Shown: one piece after another, positions 24,922 to 35,454 of the stretch | Numbering within the stretch: the stretch's first letter is position 1 | Layout: the number at the start of each line of letters is the position of its first letter | DNA from: Olivibacter sitiensis DSM 17696 | GTDB taxonomy: Bacteria; Bacteroidota; Bacteroidia; Sphingobacteriales; Sphingobacteriaceae | DNA: 64,000 bases | Reading direction: 5' to 3' | Assembly (NCBI RefSeq): GCF_000427965.1 | Contig: NZ_ATZA01000020.1 | Span: 1-64,000 of the forward strand | Program-made: the position numbers and the translations under genes | The notes under the pieces: generated by a model | Databases searched by the model: none | What the model was told of the DNA's origin: nothing | Seen by the model: only the letters and a program-made list of their open reading frames with translations

Positions 24922-25422
24922 ATGACGAAGCTATTGGAAAGGACAATATTATACATGCTGATCTTGTTGCAGCTGTTTGGTCTGGCTTATGCACAAGCCA
25001 AGATCGAGCCTCTTCCAATAGAAATGCTCGCAGACAGTATGAACCAAAAGCCCAAGGCCATACTTGTGCTTGTTGCTACAGATTGGTGTAGTTATTGTCA
25101 ATTGCAGAAGGCGCGCATGGCAAAAAGCAAGGAGTTGCGGGATGTGAGTCAGTATGTTTACTACGTGGAATTGAGTGCTGAAGCTAAGGACACGATCGTC
25201 TTTGATGGTCAGCCATATAGCTACCTCAATAATGGGCCTTCGTCAGGCATTCATGAACTCGCCGTACATCTTGCCGAAGAACATGGCAGGGTGGCATATC
25301 CAACATTGGTATTACTGGACAACAATTATCAAGTGGTATTTCGATTCCAAGGATTGCTAAGCAAGGATGCCACCAAGGCTTTAAATAATTATTTTAGAAT
25401 GTTGAGTGCGAGAAAGATGTGA
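24922..25422 (+). CDS. Secreted thioredoxin-fold protein
   Basis: 166 residues. Signal peptide ending LAYAQA, then a thioredoxin fold with active site W-C56-S-Y-C59 and a cis-Pro region at AYPTLVLLD. It probably acts in the periplasm as a thiol oxidoreductase or Cys chaperone. It appears to be in an operon with the Cys-pair TonB receptor upstream and ends at a strong terminator. Confidence 0.85.
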   Translation: MTKLLERTILYMLILLQLFGLAYAQAKIEPLPIEMLADSMNQKPKAILVLVATDWCSYCQLQKARMAKSKELRDVSQYVYYVELSAEAKDTIVFDGQPYSYLNNGPSSGIHELAVHLAEEHGRVAYPTLVLLDNNYQVVFRFQGLLSKDATKALNNYFRMLSARKM

Positions 25423-25445: not shown

Positions 25446-25476
25446 AAAGAGGCTGTCTTTTTGAGACAGCCTCTTT
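25446..25476. terminator. Bidirectional terminator between the thioredoxin-like gene and infB
   Basis: A perfect 13-bp stem AAAGAGGCTGTCT/AGACAGCCTCTTT with loop TTTTG, flanked by A and T runs. It serves both convergent operons. Confidence 0.92.
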
Positions 25477-25498: not shown

Positions 25499-28474
25499 TT
25501 AGAGTTTCCTCTTCACCTCTACTTGCTCATAAGCTTCCACGATGTCTCCGACCTTTATGTCGTTGAAATTCTGTATGTTAAGACCACATTCATAGCCCGT
25601 GGCTACCTCTTTCACATCATCTTTGAAGCGTTTCAAGGAAGCCAGCTGGCCAGTATAGATTACCACGCCATCCCTGATTACGCGAACATCGTGATTGCGA
25701 TTTATCTTTCCATCCAACACCATACATCCGGCAATAGTACCTACTTTGCTGATTTTGAACGTTTCCCTGATTTCCACATTGGCAACGATCTTTTCTTCGA
25801 ATTTAGGCGCCAACATGCCTTCCATGGCCGCTTTGATCTCGTCAATAGCATCATATATGATCGAGTACAAACGAATATCAATTTGTTCGTGCTCTGCCAG
25901 TTTCCTGGCACCCTGTGATGGCCTTACTTGGAAGCCAATGATGATGGCATCGGATGCAGAAGCTAGCAATACATCCGATTCTGAAATTTGACCTACGGAT
26001 TTGTGTATGATGTTTACCTGAATCTCTTCAGTTGAGAGCTTTAACAAGGAATCGGACAACGCTTCGATGGAACCATCCACATCACCTTTTACAATGATAT
26101 TCAGTTCCTTGAAATTACCAATTGCCAAACGGCGTCCAATTTCATCCAAGGTAATATGTTTCTGTGTACGCAGGCCTTGTTCCCGCTGCAATTGGAGTCT
26201 CTTGTTGGCAATTTGTCTTGCCTCCGATTCACTTTCCATTGCGTAGAATTTGTCGCCTGCCGTAGGGGCTCCGCTCATTCCCAGGATCTGCACTGGCGTA
26301 GAAGGTCCTGCTGCCGAAACCTTTTGGCCTCTTTCGTTCGAAAGGGCTTTCACTTTCCCGCTATGGGAACCTGCCAGTATAGGGTCTCCTACGCGTAAGG
26401 TTCCTCCCTCGATGAGTACCGTGGTCACAATGCCTCGGCCTTTATCTAAGGCAGCCTCAATGACGGTACCCACGGCACGTTTCTTAGGATCTGCCGTTAG
26501 TTCCAGCATATCGGCTTCCAAAAGTACTTTCTCAAGAAGAAGGTTGACATTTAACCCTGTTTTACCAGAGATCTCTTGGCATTGGTATTTCCCACCCCAA
26601 TCTTCTACCAAGATATTCATAGTAGAAAGCTGCTCGCGTATCCTGTCGGCATTGGCTCCTGGCTTGTCGATTTTTGTGAATGCAAATACAATAGGAACGC
26701 CTGCCGCCTGCGCGTGATTGATGGCCTCCCTGGTTTGTGGCATGACACTGTCGTCTGCAGCGATGACAATGATAGCGATATCGGTTACTTTTGCACCTCG
26801 GGCACGCATAGCAGTAAATGCCTCGTGACCAGGAGTATCAAGGAAGGTGATCTTGCGTTCGTTTTCCAAAGTAACTTCGTATGCACCTATATGCTGTGTT
26901 ATTCCACCAGCTTCTCCGGCGATGACGTTCGTATGTCGCACATAGTCCAAAAGAGAGGTCTTACCATGATCCACGTGCCCCATTACTGTCACGATAGGTG
27001 CGCGAGGAACCAAGTTTTCTGGATTGTCAGGTTCTTCCAAGGAGTGCGTCTCCTCATCTTCAGGTTTTATGAACTCTACTTCATAACCAAATTCGTCTGC
27101 AACGATGGTCAATGTTTCGGCATCCAAACGCTGATTGATGGAAACGAAAATACCGAGGCTCATGCAAGTGGAAATGATCTGAGTGACAGATACATCCATC
27201 ATGTTGGCAAGGTCATTTGCCGTTACAAATTCCGTAACGCGTAATACTTTTGATTGAAGCTCTTTTTCAAGTGCCGCCTCTTCTGCAGAAGAAGCAACAT
27301 CATCTCTTTTTTGCCTTCTCAATTTTGCACGTTGTGCAAATTTTCCAGACTTTCCTGCACCACTTAATCGGGCAAGGGTTGCCTTGATCTGGTCTTGTAT
27401 TTCTTTTTCTGATGGTTCTTCCTTTGTTGGTTCAGTACCGCGTCTGCCTTTGAAATCTTTTCCTTTGAACCGATCTGGTCTGGTGTTTCCGCCGTGGCGA
27501 GCTTGGCCTTGTCCAGCGTTTTGCTGGCCGCTATTGCTTTGCGGGGTTGTGCTGGTCCTTTTTCGCTTCCTTTTGTTATGATCGGCTCCAGTACCTACCC
27601 CTCCATTTGAAGAGGAAGCCACGGGTTTGTCCTTGTGCCTAACATGTGGCGTAGGCAATTCAATTTTCCCAATAACTTTAGGGCCAGATAGGTGTTCTGT
27701 TTTTGCTCTATAGATATTGGGGCCTTCGCTTTCTTTAGAACTGGGGGTGGCTGCTTGTTCTTCACTACTTGTCGCTTTGTCGCTTTGGGTAGTGGGTGAT
27801 ACGTTTTCAGACACTTTGTCTGCCACATGCATCGGTGCACTTGGCTGATTCTTGCTTGGTATTTCTGCCGTTTGTTTCACTGGCTCCTTCTTTGGAACTA
27901 CTTCTTTTGGGGTTTCATCGGCAATATCATTGGATGGCAATGCTTCTTTGATGTCATCAACTTGATCTGCCTTAGGGCTTTCTGTTGGGATAATAGGGTC
28001 TTGCTTTTTTTCTTTGTTTTTACCCTTTTGTTTCAAGCTATCAAGATCTATTTTTCCCACCACCTTTACGCCAAAAGAAGGCGAGCTTTGCTCTTCGTCC
28101 TTTTTTGAAGGGGTTTCTTTAGATGTATGAGGCTCTGTTGGGGTAGGCACAGGGGCACTGAAAGCAGTATTTTGTTTGATGAGGATTTCCTCTTGGATAT
28201 CTTGCTTTTCTTCTTGCGCTTTTGGCGTAGGAGTTTCTATAGGAGCCTCATCGCGACGAATCTTTCCAATAACGATTTGATTGGCTTCTTCCTTAACGAT
28301 TTTGTCTCCCTGAAATTCCTTGGAAAGAACCTCATACATATCCGAGGTCAATTTGGTATTTGGTTTTGCGCTCACTTCAAAGCCATTGCTAGCTAAAAAA
28401 TCAGCGGCTGTACCAATTCCAATGTTGAGTTCTTTTGCTGCTTTCAGTAAATTTATGCTCTTGCCTTCTGTCAT
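25499..28474 (-). CDS. infB: Translation initiation factor IF-2
   Basis: 991 residues from ATG 28474, which begins [16 protein letters not shown], the IF2_N helix start. Then a long charged, Pro/Lys-rich linker (to about 400), a second IF2_N ([13 protein letters not shown]), the GTPase domain ([20 protein letters not shown]), and domains II-IV. G4 reads TKID rather than NKID. It places initiator tRNA on the 30S subunit. Third gene after rimP and nusA; CAAAAATA at 28513-28520 is a possible own -7 element. Confidence 0.97.
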
Positions 28475-28654
28475 TAATATAGTTACCTCTGTTGTTTTTT
28501 TTATGTATAATGCAAAAATACATTTTTTTGCCTCATTATTAGAATTATTGGAAATAATGATGACAAAATCCCTTTGGAACATTCTACGAACATCTGGGAT
28601 AAAAGTCGTCTAAGCTGCTTCTATTGCCTAAGTAACAGAAGCAAAATGTCCATT

Positions 28655-29890
28655 TTATTCAAATTCGGCGTTCAGGATGTCGATCACATCTTCTACGGTG
28701 CTCTCTTCCAAATCCGTGCGTCTCACAAGTTCCGTAACGTCCAAAGCCAAGATGGATTTTGCAGTATCCAGACCTACCCGTTTGAACTCGTCAATGATCC
28801 ATCCTTCGATTTCATCTGCGAATTCGTCGAGATCCACATCTTCCTCATTGTCATGATCCTGGCGATATACGTCAATCTCATATCCCGTCAATTTACCGGC
28901 AAGCTTAATGTTGTGTCCGCCACGTCCTATGGCTAAGGATACTTGATCTGCTTCCAGGTAAACGGCCGCTCTCTTATGTTCCTCGTCCAGCTTGATATTG
29001 TTGATACGGGCGGGACTCAGTGCGCGTTGGATATACAATGAGCTGTTCGTCGTAAAATTGATTACGTCAATATTTTCGTTTCTAAGTTCGCGGACGATAC
29101 CGTGGATACGGGAACCCTTCATGCCCACACAAGCTCCTACTGGGTCTATGCGGTCATCATAAGATTCCACAGCTACTTTCGCACGTTCTCCTGGTTCGCG
29201 AACGATTTTTTTGATGGTAATCAACCCATCAAATATTTCGGGGACTTCCAATTCAAATAGGCGCTGTAGGAACTCTGGCGCTGTTCTGGAAATGATGATC
29301 TTTGGCGTGGTATTCATCATATCCACTTTGTGCACTACTGCGCGAATGGTATCCCCTTTCTTGAAATAGTCCGCAGGGATTTGTTCCGATTTGGGGAGGA
29401 TAAGCTCATTGCCTTCGTCATCCAATATAAGGCTTTCCTTCTTCCACGTTTGGTATACTTCTCCGGTGACTATTTCGCCGACGCGATCTTTGTACTTCTT
29501 GAAAATCTCATCTTTTTCCAGTTCCAACACCTTCGATACCAAAGTTTGCCTAGCGGCCAAAATAGCTCTGCGGCCAAAGCTTTCCAAGGTGATTTCTTCG
29601 ATGAAATCATCTCCGACTTCTAAATCCGGATCTACTTTCCTTGCTTCGGATAGTTCGATTTCCAGGTCATCGTCTTCCGAAAATTCGTCTTCTACGACTA
29701 CCCGAGTACGGTAAATTTCCAAGTCGCCGTTGTCGGGGTTCACAATGACGTCACAGTTTTCGTCGGTGTTGAATTTTTTTCGGATCATACTCCGAAATAC
29801 TTCCTCTAGAACACTGATTACCGTTGGACGGTCGATGTTTTTGAAGTCCTTAAACTCCTGAAATGAGTCGATTAAATTGATGTTGCTCAT
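28655..29890 (-). CDS. nusA: Transcription factor NusA
   Basis: 411 residues. N-terminal RNAP-binding domain, S1 domain (RVGEIVTGEVYQ), and KH domains (EPGERAKVAVESYD, GACVGMKGSRIHGI, AIGRGGHNIKLAGKL). A short acidic C-terminus replaces the repeats of E. coli NusA. It modulates pausing, termination and antitermination. It lies 4 nt after rimP and upstream of infB. Confidence 0.97.
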   Translation of the reverse strand: MSNINLIDSFQEFKDFKNIDRPTVISVLEEVFRSMIRKKFNTDENCDVIVNPDNGDLEIYRTRVVVEDEFSEDDDLEIELSEARKVDPDLEVGDDFIEEITLESFGRRAILAARQTLVSKVLELEKDEIFKKYKDRVGEIVTGEVYQTWKKESLILDDEGNELILPKSEQIPADYFKKGDTIRAVVHKVDMMNTTPKIIISRTAPEFLQRLFELEVPEIFDGLITIKKIVREPGERAKVAVESYDDRIDPVGACVGMKGSRIHGIVRELRNENIDVINFTTNSSLYIQRALSPARINNIKLDEEHKRAAVYLEADQVSLAIGRGGHNIKLAGKLTGYEIDVYRQDHDNEEDVDLDEFADEIEGWIIDEFKRVGLDTAKSILALDVTELVRRTDLEESTVEDVIDILNAEFE

Positions 29891-29894
29891 TTTG

Positions 29895-30368
29895 TTATTT
29901 GAATGAAATTATAACCTTTATTTCTGCTATTTCGTCAATTGCCTTGCTCACTTGCTTGGCATATGCCTTTTTTCCTTTTTCCTTTACGCTTGTTTCCAGC
30001 ACTATTTTGTCGGGAGTGACTTCCAGTAGCACGCCCTCTATGCGCTCTCCCTCTTTTGTCTTAAGAGCTATCGTCCTCCCGGTATTTTTTACATATTGCC
30101 TATGCAGGAGTAAAGGGCTGTCTATGCCAGGCGAGGACACTTCGAGGTTATAAGCCTGCTCTATTAGTGCTTCTTCCTCCAAGTGATAGCCTACATGCCT
30201 GCTTATGGCGGCGCAATCCTGAATATTGATGCCTTCATCACCGTCTACACAGATGGCAAGCCTGCCATTTTTCTGTAGCGATATGCTTACCAAAAACAAG
30301 TCTGGCCTGTCCGATATTTTTTCCTCTACGAGCTCTCTTACCCTGTCTTCTACTTTCATCAAAAACAT
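29895..30368 (-). CDS. rimP: Ribosome maturation factor RimP
   Basis: 157 residues from ATG 30368, or 154 from ATG 30359 (MKVEDRVRELVEE). Signatures are LEVSSPGIDSPL and the C-terminal Sm-like domain (RIEGVLLEVTPDKIVLE). It supports 30S maturation. It is first in the rimP-nusA-infB operon, with a terminator-like hairpin ending 8 nt before its start. Confidence 0.95.
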   Translation of the reverse strand: MFLMKVEDRVRELVEEKISDRPDLFLVSISLQKNGRLAICVDGDEGINIQDCAAISRHVGYHLEEEALIEQAYNLEVSSPGIDSPLLLHRQYVKNTGRTIALKTKEGERIEGVLLEVTPDKIVLETSVKEKGKKAYAKQVSKAIDEIAEIKVIISFK

Positions 30369-30376
30369 GCATAATG

Positions 30377-30411
30377 AAAAAGAGGGGCCTAAATTGGGGT
30401 CCCCTCTTTTT
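30377..30411 (-). terminator. Terminator-like hairpin in the rimP leader
   Basis: An 11-bp perfect stem AAAAAGAGGGG (30377-30387) with CCCCTCTTTTT (30401-30411) and a 13-nt loop. On the minus strand it ends in five U, 8 nt before the rimP ATG. It lies downstream of the promoter at 30422-30452, so it is inside the operon's leader, and it also terminates the upstream holin-like gene. Confidence 0.8.
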
Positions 30412-30421
30412 AAAGATTATG

Positions 30422-30452
30422 CAAATATAAAGCTTTTCTTTGGGAATTCAAA
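30422..30452 (-). promoter_or_regulatory. Promoter of rimP-nusA-infB
   Basis: On the minus strand, TTTG (30452-30449), 19 nt, then TATATTTG (30429-30422): a full consensus match. Transcription should begin near 30415, immediately before the leader hairpin. Confidence 0.8.
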
Positions 30453-30518: not shown

Positions 30519-30872
30519 TTAGTCTGCCTTATTCGTGCCAAAGAGGCTACCAAAGATCATCTGGAAGAAAGCCGTCAATAATGCAAACAATGCCGCCCAC
30601 CAAAAATTGTCTACCACAAAATTGGGCTTTAGGAAATAACTCGTGAGCTGTACCATCAAAACAGTGATGATGAACGAGATCAATCCCAATGTGAGCAGGT
30701 TGAGCGGAAAAGTGAAAAATCGCAAAATGGTACCAATGGTGGCATTGACAAATGCGATGATAAATCCTGCTAATAAAGCATACAAGAAACCGGAAACATG
30801 TGCTCCGGGTAGGATATAGGCAGCTAACAAAATGCTTATTCCCGTAATGAAAAGGTCTACTATAAATTTCAT
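30519..30872 (-). CDS. Phage-holin-family four-helix membrane protein
   Basis: 117 residues with four hydrophobic helices: IVDLFITGISILLAAYI, FLYALLAGFIIAFVN, LLTLGLISFIITVLM and WWAALFALLTAFFQMIF. This matches the mycobacterial-type 'phage holin family' (superfamily IV), which is widespread on chromosomes and not by itself a sign of prophage. No phage gene is nearby. Function unknown. It ends upstream of the rimP promoter. Confidence 0.8.
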   Translation of the reverse strand: MKFIVDLFITGISILLAAYILPGAHVSGFLYALLAGFIIAFVNATIGTILRFFTFPLNLLTLGLISFIITVLMVQLTSYFLKPNFVVDNFWWAALFALLTAFFQMIFGSLFGTNKAD

Positions 30873-34323: not shown

Positions 34324-35454
34324 ATGGAGAAGATTTTTAGGGGCATAATGCTATGCCTATTATGTACGGGACTATTATCTTGCGCGGATCGCAAAAGCAG
34401 TTATATCGTCGTTTCTAATGCCCTAGGAGTGGACAGAAAGGAGCTCGTAAGCATTGATTATGTCTCTTTTAAGGATGCTTTTGGAAGTGATACCGTGTTT
34501 CGTTTAATGGAACAGGGGTCTGGCAAGGAATTGCCGTATCAATTGGAAAGGCTTGGAGGGAAGGAGGTCAAGAATGTATTGGTATGGGTTGAGCTTGCTG
34601 CCAATGACAGTATTCGTATTGAAGTAGAAAAGGCAGCTGCGGCGCCTGTTGAAGCGCGGACCTATGCCCGTTACGTGCCGGAGCGAAAAGACGATTTTGC
34701 TTGGGAAAACGACAAAGTTGCCTTCCGTATGTATGGCAAGGCCTTAGAAGACTTTCCTGCAGAAAATGCACATGGCACCGATGTATGGGCCAAACGGACA
34801 TCAAAATTGGTAGTGGATGAATGGTACAAGACCGGCGATTATCACCAGGATCATGGAGAAGGGTTGGATTATTATTCCGTAGGTTTGACCTTGGGAGCAG
34901 GAGATATTGCTCCTTTTGTGAACGGGAAGATTAGCTATCCTAAGCACTACAATCGATATGAATTGTTGGATAACGGACCATTGAGGAGTACGTTCAAGTT
35001 GTTTTATGAGCCTTGGAATGTAGGTGATAAGGAGGTGGTGGTAGAAAAAACGATCAGTATAGACGCTGGCTCTCAACTTAATAAAGTGGAGGCAGTATTC
35101 CGTTTTGATGGACAGGATGTACTGCCCGTGGTAGCAGGCATTGTATTGCGCGGCGATAAGGGGCAGGTTATAAAAGACCAAACCAAAGGCATTGCGGCCT
35201 ATTGGGAGCCGCAACATGATGACGATGGGATTTTGGGAATAGCCGTACTCTCTGCCGTTCCTGCAACGAAGATATTCGAGGAGGAAGAACAGCTGTTGTC
35301 ACTTTATACCGCTAGGAATGGAGAGCCCATCACCTATTATAATGGAGCGGCTTGGAATAAAGCCGGGAAGATAAAAACGGAGGAAGAATGGACAGAATAC
35401 TTGGAGGACTATTTGCTCAGATTGAATCAACCATTGATTGTAACGGTTAAATAA
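34324..35454 (+). CDS. DUF4861 family lipoprotein, uronate/pectin locus
   Basis: 376 residues with lipobox GLLSC near residue 20. The body is beta-rich, with YARYVPERKDDFAWENDKVAFRMYG and the acidic/His stretch YHQDHGEGLDYY, as in DUF4861 proteins of pectin utilisation loci. Activity on unsaturated rhamnogalacturonan-type products has been proposed for relatives; I treat it as uncertain. It lies between kduI (34 nt) and kduD (14 nt). Confidence 0.82.
   Translation: MEKIFRGIMLCLLCTGLLSCADRKSSYIVVSNALGVDRKELVSIDYVSFKDAFGSDTVFRLMEQGSGKELPYQLERLGGKEVKNVLVWVELAANDSIRIEVEKAAAAPVEARTYARYVPERKDDFAWENDKVAFRMYGKALEDFPAENAHGTDVWAKRTSKLVVDEWYKTGDYHQDHGEGLDYYSVGLTLGAGDIAPFVNGKISYPKHYNRYELLDNGPLRSTFKLFYEPWNVGDKEVVVEKTISIDAGSQLNKVEAVFRFDGQDVLPVVAGIVLRGDKGQVIKDQTKGIAAYWEPQHDDDGILGIAVLSAVPATKIFEEEEQLLSLYTARNGEPITYYNGAAWNKAGKIKTEEEWTEYLEDYLLRLNQPLIVTVK

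Follow-up and report, generated by a model that had tools for sequence, protein, structure and literature searches.

A conserved hairpin in the rimP-nusA-infB leader of Bacteroidota as a probable premature-termination attenuator

What role does a terminator-like hairpin play when it lies directly after the promoter of the rimP-nusA-infB operon? This question is raised by Olivibacter sitiensis, of which we analyzed a 64-kb stretch of DNA (called the window below). Read along its minus strand, a Phage_holin_4_2 gene comes first, followed by the promoter, the hairpin, rimP, nusA, and infB (Table 1). The NusA encoded there shares 83% identity with NusA of Pedobacter frigiditerrae (L063), in line with Sphingobacteriaceae as the most likely family.

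Table 1. Features of the rimP-nusA-infB leader and its surroundings in the window
Feature	Positions	Strand	Basis
-33 element TTTG, Bacteroidota-type promoter	30449..30452	-	Sequence
-7 element TATATTTG (TAnnTTTG)	30422..30429	-	Sequence; same box in relatives
Hairpin 5' arm AAAAAGAGGGG (A5GAGGGG)	30401..30411	-	Sequence, fold, relatives
Hairpin apical part: bulged A, 2 C-G pairs, 8-nt loop	30388..30400	-	Fold
Hairpin 3' arm CCCCTCTTTTT (CCCCTCT5), including U5 tract 30381-30377	30377..30387	-	Sequence, fold, relatives
rimP	29895..30359	-	ATG 30359 by relatives; ORF opens at 30368; RimP_N 7e-17
nusA	28655..29890	-	NusA_N 6e-34
infB (ORF; true start may be further in)	25499..28582	-	IF-2 3.7e-42
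Upstream codirectional gene, Phage_holin_4_2 membrane protein (context, outside the element)	30519..30872	-	

The promoter reads TTTG-N19-TATATTTG and spans positions 30452-30422 of the minus strand. We took the TTTG at 30452-30449 as the -33 element, going by the Bacteroidota -33 consensus. A sigma-70 scan gave this promoter a score of only 9/12 because its model is that of E. coli, and it reported the hairpin on the plus strand only, owing to its loop limit. The original prediction had placed a promoter at 30452-30422, and this was confirmed. The sequence fits the Bacteroidota -33/-7 consensus; the -7 part, TAnnTTTG, is the one given in PMC9723704.

The terminator-like hairpin (30411-30377, minus strand, directly after the promoter) had been described as an 11-bp stem with a U5 end, and both the sequence and the fold agreed with this description. 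The U5 (30381-30377) pairs with an A5, the outer five pairs being A5-U5, and thus has a double role as stem base and U-tract. Two further C-G pairs lie inside the nominal 13-nt loop, past a bulged A. The 65-nt leader folded with a minimum free energy of -20.9 kcal/mol (z score of -3.54), and 1 of 200 dinucleotide shuffles folded equally well. The distance to rimP had to be revised. The rimP start in relatives matches ATG 30359 (MKVEDRV...) and not ATG 30368, from which a distance of 8 nt had been counted; with ATG 30359, the U5 ends 17 nt before rimP. Two places in the 64-kb window, one of them the rimP leader, have a TAnnTTTG no more than 40 nt from a stem that is 8 bp or longer and has a T4 run. 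The second case (34893-34914, plus strand) has TAnnTTTG 5 nt before a hairpin and T-run, lies within a plus-strand ORF, and is probably due to chance. A search of the whole genome with a related pattern gave one match, namely, the rimP leader. At the other end of the operon, a strong terminator-like hairpin with 14 pairs (25446-25476, plus strand) was found just beyond the 3' end of infB, between infB and a plus-strand gene ending at 25422.

For comparison, we searched 60 relatives, from members of the same genus out to other families within the class. RimP was found in 58 of them and not in the other 2, and all 58 loci with RimP were taken. Each of the 58 had a hairpin before rimP, downstream of a -7-like box, and the 45 nt before the stem contained an exact TAnnTTTG in 58/58. 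The consensus of these RimP-anchored hairpins was GAGGGGAC-loop-GUCCCCUC-UUUU. An exact GGGGAC...GTCCCC core was found in 34/58 loci, corresponding to 22/37 in the family of O. sitiensis and 12/21 in other families, and RimP identity was 27-44% in the relatives outside that family. The 8-bp GAGGGGAC...GTCCCCTC stem occurred in 28/58 loci, and loop lengths ranged from 3 to 7 among the exact-core leaders. The G-rich arm came first in 54/58 relatives; one locus (L029) had the stem arms swapped and kept the hairpin, and three others (L035, L036, and L051) failed the GGG/CCC test. A T4 run was present at the stem in 50/58 leaders. The other 8 kept the hairpin without a T4, and strong intrinsic termination is therefore not the sole constraint on this element. 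A strict hairpin-plus-T score was passed by 44/58 leaders, compared with 2/1160 shuffles and 0/55 stretches taken further upstream.

Covariation of the stem in relatives, which the original prediction had suggested looking for, was found. In the alignment of the 58 hairpins, compensatory changes on both sides were present at 8 of 10 pairs (2.7 in shuffles), with 24 compensatory cells compared with 3.9 in shuffles. Pairing cells amounted to 94.9%, compared with 89.8% after shuffling, and pairing fell to 45-71% when the partner was slid by 1-3 columns. All of these shuffles ignore the relatedness of the sequences. The pair counts were lowered because MAFFT misplaced a few alignment rows (e.g., L023, L029, L041, L049, and L057). 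Compensatory changes in the stem argue against the palindrome being a DNA operator to which a transcription factor binds. Such an operator would account for the near symmetry of the element in the family of O. sitiensis, A-run included, but the spacer between the half-sites varies from 3 to 7, and many other families have the T-run without a matching A-run. We consider this explanation extremely improbable.

A covariance model was built from the same 58 hairpins. In the genome of O. sitiensis, it placed the rimP leader second of 27 matches at an E value of ≤10. The model also matched ordinary terminators in 93/118 genomes of the phylum, often several per genome, and was dropped as a regulon definition for being unspecific. 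By structure alone, the leader therefore resembles many terminators.

The sequence pattern GAGGGGAC-N3..8-GTCCCCTCTTTT was scanned in one genome per species (84,980 species), giving at least 119 stretches. RimP was tested for with a profile made from the 58 RimP proteins, no more than 400 nt downstream and on the same strand. Among the matches listed, 113 of 119 stretches stood directly before rimP. In Mesonia phycicola (L110), a RimP-like protein starts just past the hairpin, where the locus ends, which brings the number to 114/119 among the matches listed. Four stretches (L064, L066, L112, and L118) were near genes other than rimP. In a Rhodospirillaceae MAG (L103:192-218), the exact Bacteroidia hairpin precedes a dnaJ-like ORF instead of rimP.

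The surroundings of these hairpins allowed two further explanations to be weighed. In 101 of the 113 pattern loci listed, the 80 nt before the stem included a TAnnTTTG, compared with 5.7% in shuffles. Of these 113, 82 had a divergent longest nearby upstream ORF and 24 a codirectional one, with 7 unscored; the corresponding numbers in the 58 RimP-anchored loci were 19, 37, and 2. Since most pattern loci listed have a divergent upstream gene, terminating that gene is not the general role of the hairpin. The gene upstream in the window does point the same way as rimP, and the scan listed no further terminator-like site on the minus strand from 30519 to the hairpin, as would suit an ordinary terminator for that gene or an insulator that blocks read-through. 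Nevertheless, the hairpin is positioned after the promoter, and we judge this role to be very unlikely. A 5' stem-loop for mRNA stability or translation control appears highly improbable, too. The position of the hairpin near the 5' end fits such a function in the family of O. sitiensis, where the stem starts 6-24 nt past the -7 box, and in the 113 pattern loci listed the T4 run mostly ends 6-20 nt ahead of the predicted ATG. However, in the latter loci the stem is mostly 20-31 nt from the -7 box and the distance to the ATG ranges from 1 to 141 nt, and neither stability nor translation would need the conserved U-run.

We also compared the U-tracts. An intact T6 was present in 10/33 RimP-anchored leaders with a T4 after the stem, compared with 57/92 other terminator-like hairpins from the same loci, which form a rough control of related sequences. 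Set against the same 57/92, and subject to the same limits of a rough control and relatedness, the 113 pattern loci listed had an intact T6 in 5 cases. The tail of the U-tract in the window is UUUUUCAUUAU. In B. subtilis, terminators that depend on NusA and NusG are described as having distal interruptions of the U-tract (PMC8060035). Among the other terminator-like hairpins in the studied loci, AGAGGC was the commonest 3' end of the stem (16/107).

A phylum-wide set comprised 61 genomes, with RimP in 61/61, and 56 of them were new. The strict hairpin-plus-T score was passed by 41/56 leaders, compared with 6/1120 shuffles and 1/56 control stretches, and missed by 15/56. The stem type varied with the family, the GAGGGGAC type being found in several genomes of the same class. 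Family f35 had a GUGGGG...CCCCAC stem, and 13/13 passed the score. Two families had a C-first stem with a U-run and thus a reversed arm order: UCGCCC...GGGCGA in f34 (L255, L259, L266, L267, L268, and L274; 6/6 passed) and CGUCCGU...GCGGGCG in f31 (L272, L275, L276, and L279; 4/4 passed). The strict score was missed in families f30 (0/4) and f41 (0/5). The rimP leaders of f41 (L282, L283, L280, L254, and L270) have a very weak hairpin, GAAGGC...GCUUUU or alike, possibly a reduced form. Among genomes grouped around a Selenomonadales MAG, 29/30 had RimP_N, and 25/29 leaders had GGG...CCC stems, mostly GAGUGGG...CCCACUC. In this group (L185-L212 and L183), GAGUGGG...CCCACUC was followed by a weak U-run, often with CUUA soon after.

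Taken together, the rimP-nusA-infB leader is probably a premature-termination attenuator, with NusA as its plausible controller. That the leader acts as an attenuator had been proposed in the original prediction, and it is strongly supported by the position, conservation, covariation, and gene specificity of the hairpin, along with the termination mapped in the Streptococcus agalactiae leader as reported in PMC4448216. RNA polymerase would start about 5-7 nt past the -7 box, and the first ~40 nt to be transcribed would contain the GGGG/CCCC hairpin and the U-tract. The polymerase would then either stop, freeing an RNA of ~40 nt, or continue into rimP-nusA-infB. The leader is too short for an antiterminator fold, and the decision would therefore most likely be set by elongation factors that promote termination. 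Abundant NusA would stimulate termination at this putatively suboptimal terminator, and its own operon would thereby be lowered. We thus infer premature termination at the window hairpin; by analogy, NusA may be the sensor at this leader, with negative feedback. Control by NusA is plausible given the precedents in B. subtilis and E. coli (PMC12288461, PMC4448216) and the interrupted U-tract. Both NusA and IF2 are core factors, and with this leader NusA feedback could readily be tested in Bacteroidota. The leader would be a brake close to the promoter, almost unchanged in sequence throughout a class with little known RNA regulation.

The sequence of the stem also suggests a different function, which we regard as unlikely: the GAGGGGAC/GUCCCCUC stem might be a sequence-specific RNA operator that binds a product of the operon (NusA KH/S1, RimP, or IF2). 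The bound product would act on termination, translation, or decay, and terminator strength would be secondary. This would explain why the exact GGGGAC...GUCCCC core is kept in 34/58 loci, including the 12/21 outside the family at RimP identities of 27-44%, and why 8 leaders without a T4 run still keep the hairpin; the frozen stems that other groups have of their own (GAGUGGG...CCCACUC, and GUGGGG...CCCCAC in f35) point in the same direction. On the other hand, the U-run is also kept in most loci, and L029 retains the hairpin with swapped arms. A premature-termination attenuator remains our preferred reading. Still, the stem is frozen in sequence well beyond what a terminator requires: pairing matters, according to the covariation, yet most lineages leave that sequence freedom unused. 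The frozen stem poses the question of what reads it. Tentatively, and with more doubt than confidence, we suggest that GAGGGGAC/GUCCCCUC could be a class-specific code read by Bacteroidia NusA (or RimP or IF2), and that other groups could have co-evolved frozen codes of their own, the putative ones being GAGUGGG/CCCACUC, GUGGGG/CCCCAC, and the C-first UCGCCC/GGGCGA. If this were true, the transcription-translation machinery would possess, in the rimP leader, an autoregulatory element that is sequence-specific and nearly universal.

The attenuator hypothesis itself is not new: Naville and Gautheret put it forward for other phyla in 2010 (PMC2965389), and in their list no gene has an attenuator before it more often than rimP. 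They describe a rimP-leader with a GGGc...gCCC stem and NusA as the best candidate. What the present analysis adds is the class-wide consensus, gene specificity, covariation, and distribution of the rimP-leader hairpin. Like the rimP-leader of PMC2965389, the element described here belongs to the same operon and has a short G-first/C-second terminator stem, a U-run, and no antiterminator. In the window, rimP is the first gene of rimP-nusA-infB, the stem is GGGG...CCCC, and the U5 at 17 nt fits the 4-130 nt at which PMC2965389 places the U-stretch before the gene. Unlike that motif, given as GGGc...gCCC for Firmicutes and Gammaproteobacteria (PMC2965389), the Bacteroidota core is GAGGGGAC...GUCCCCUC; the c after GGG is mostly not kept in the relatives, which have GGGGAC here. 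Words beginning with Bacteroid or Flavobact are absent from the main text of PMC2965389. RF01770 of Rfam (102 positions) is likewise a rimP leader and does not find the Bacteroidota form. It had no match in the genome of O. sitiensis, nor one at an E value of ≤10 in the scan of the region, where the 6 Rfam matches at this threshold were all far below gathering scores; among 14 control genomes, it matched E. coli alone. An RNA-family model for the Bacteroidota leader is therefore missing. E. coli has a GGGC...GCCC hairpin with a T7 run immediately before rimP. The expression of E. coli rimP 5' UTR-plus-ORF fusions was decreased in a Rho mutant, for a cause that the authors left open (PMC7815308).

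Another known case is a structured, transcribed 5' element of rimP in Flavobacterium psychrophilum, reported as conserved in Flavobacteriaceae and without an Rfam match (PMC9723704). It shares the phylum and the gene with our element, and the main text of PMC9723704 gives it without sequence, mechanism, or wider distribution. Judged by titles, the literature on rimP leaders in Bacteroidetes, including B. thetaiotaomicron, offered nothing nearer than PMC9723704. A search for literature on premature termination at nusA/infB in Bacteroidota found none. In B. subtilis, attenuation in the NusA leader was reportedly shown by NusA depletion (by Mondal, in 2016) and is said to involve no antiterminator. 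According to a 2025 review, B. subtilis NusA controls its own expression by stimulating termination in the 5' leader (PMC12288461), the same logic as that which we propose here by analogy. In S. agalactiae (gbs0413-0418), which belongs to another phylum, the same operon has an early mapped 3' end: transcripts of rimP-nusA-infB stop at a predicted terminator 31 nt past the transcription start site, for which the authors suggest feedback by NusA (PMC4448216). The leader described here is best read as the Bacteroidota form of the rimP-leader described in PMC2965389.
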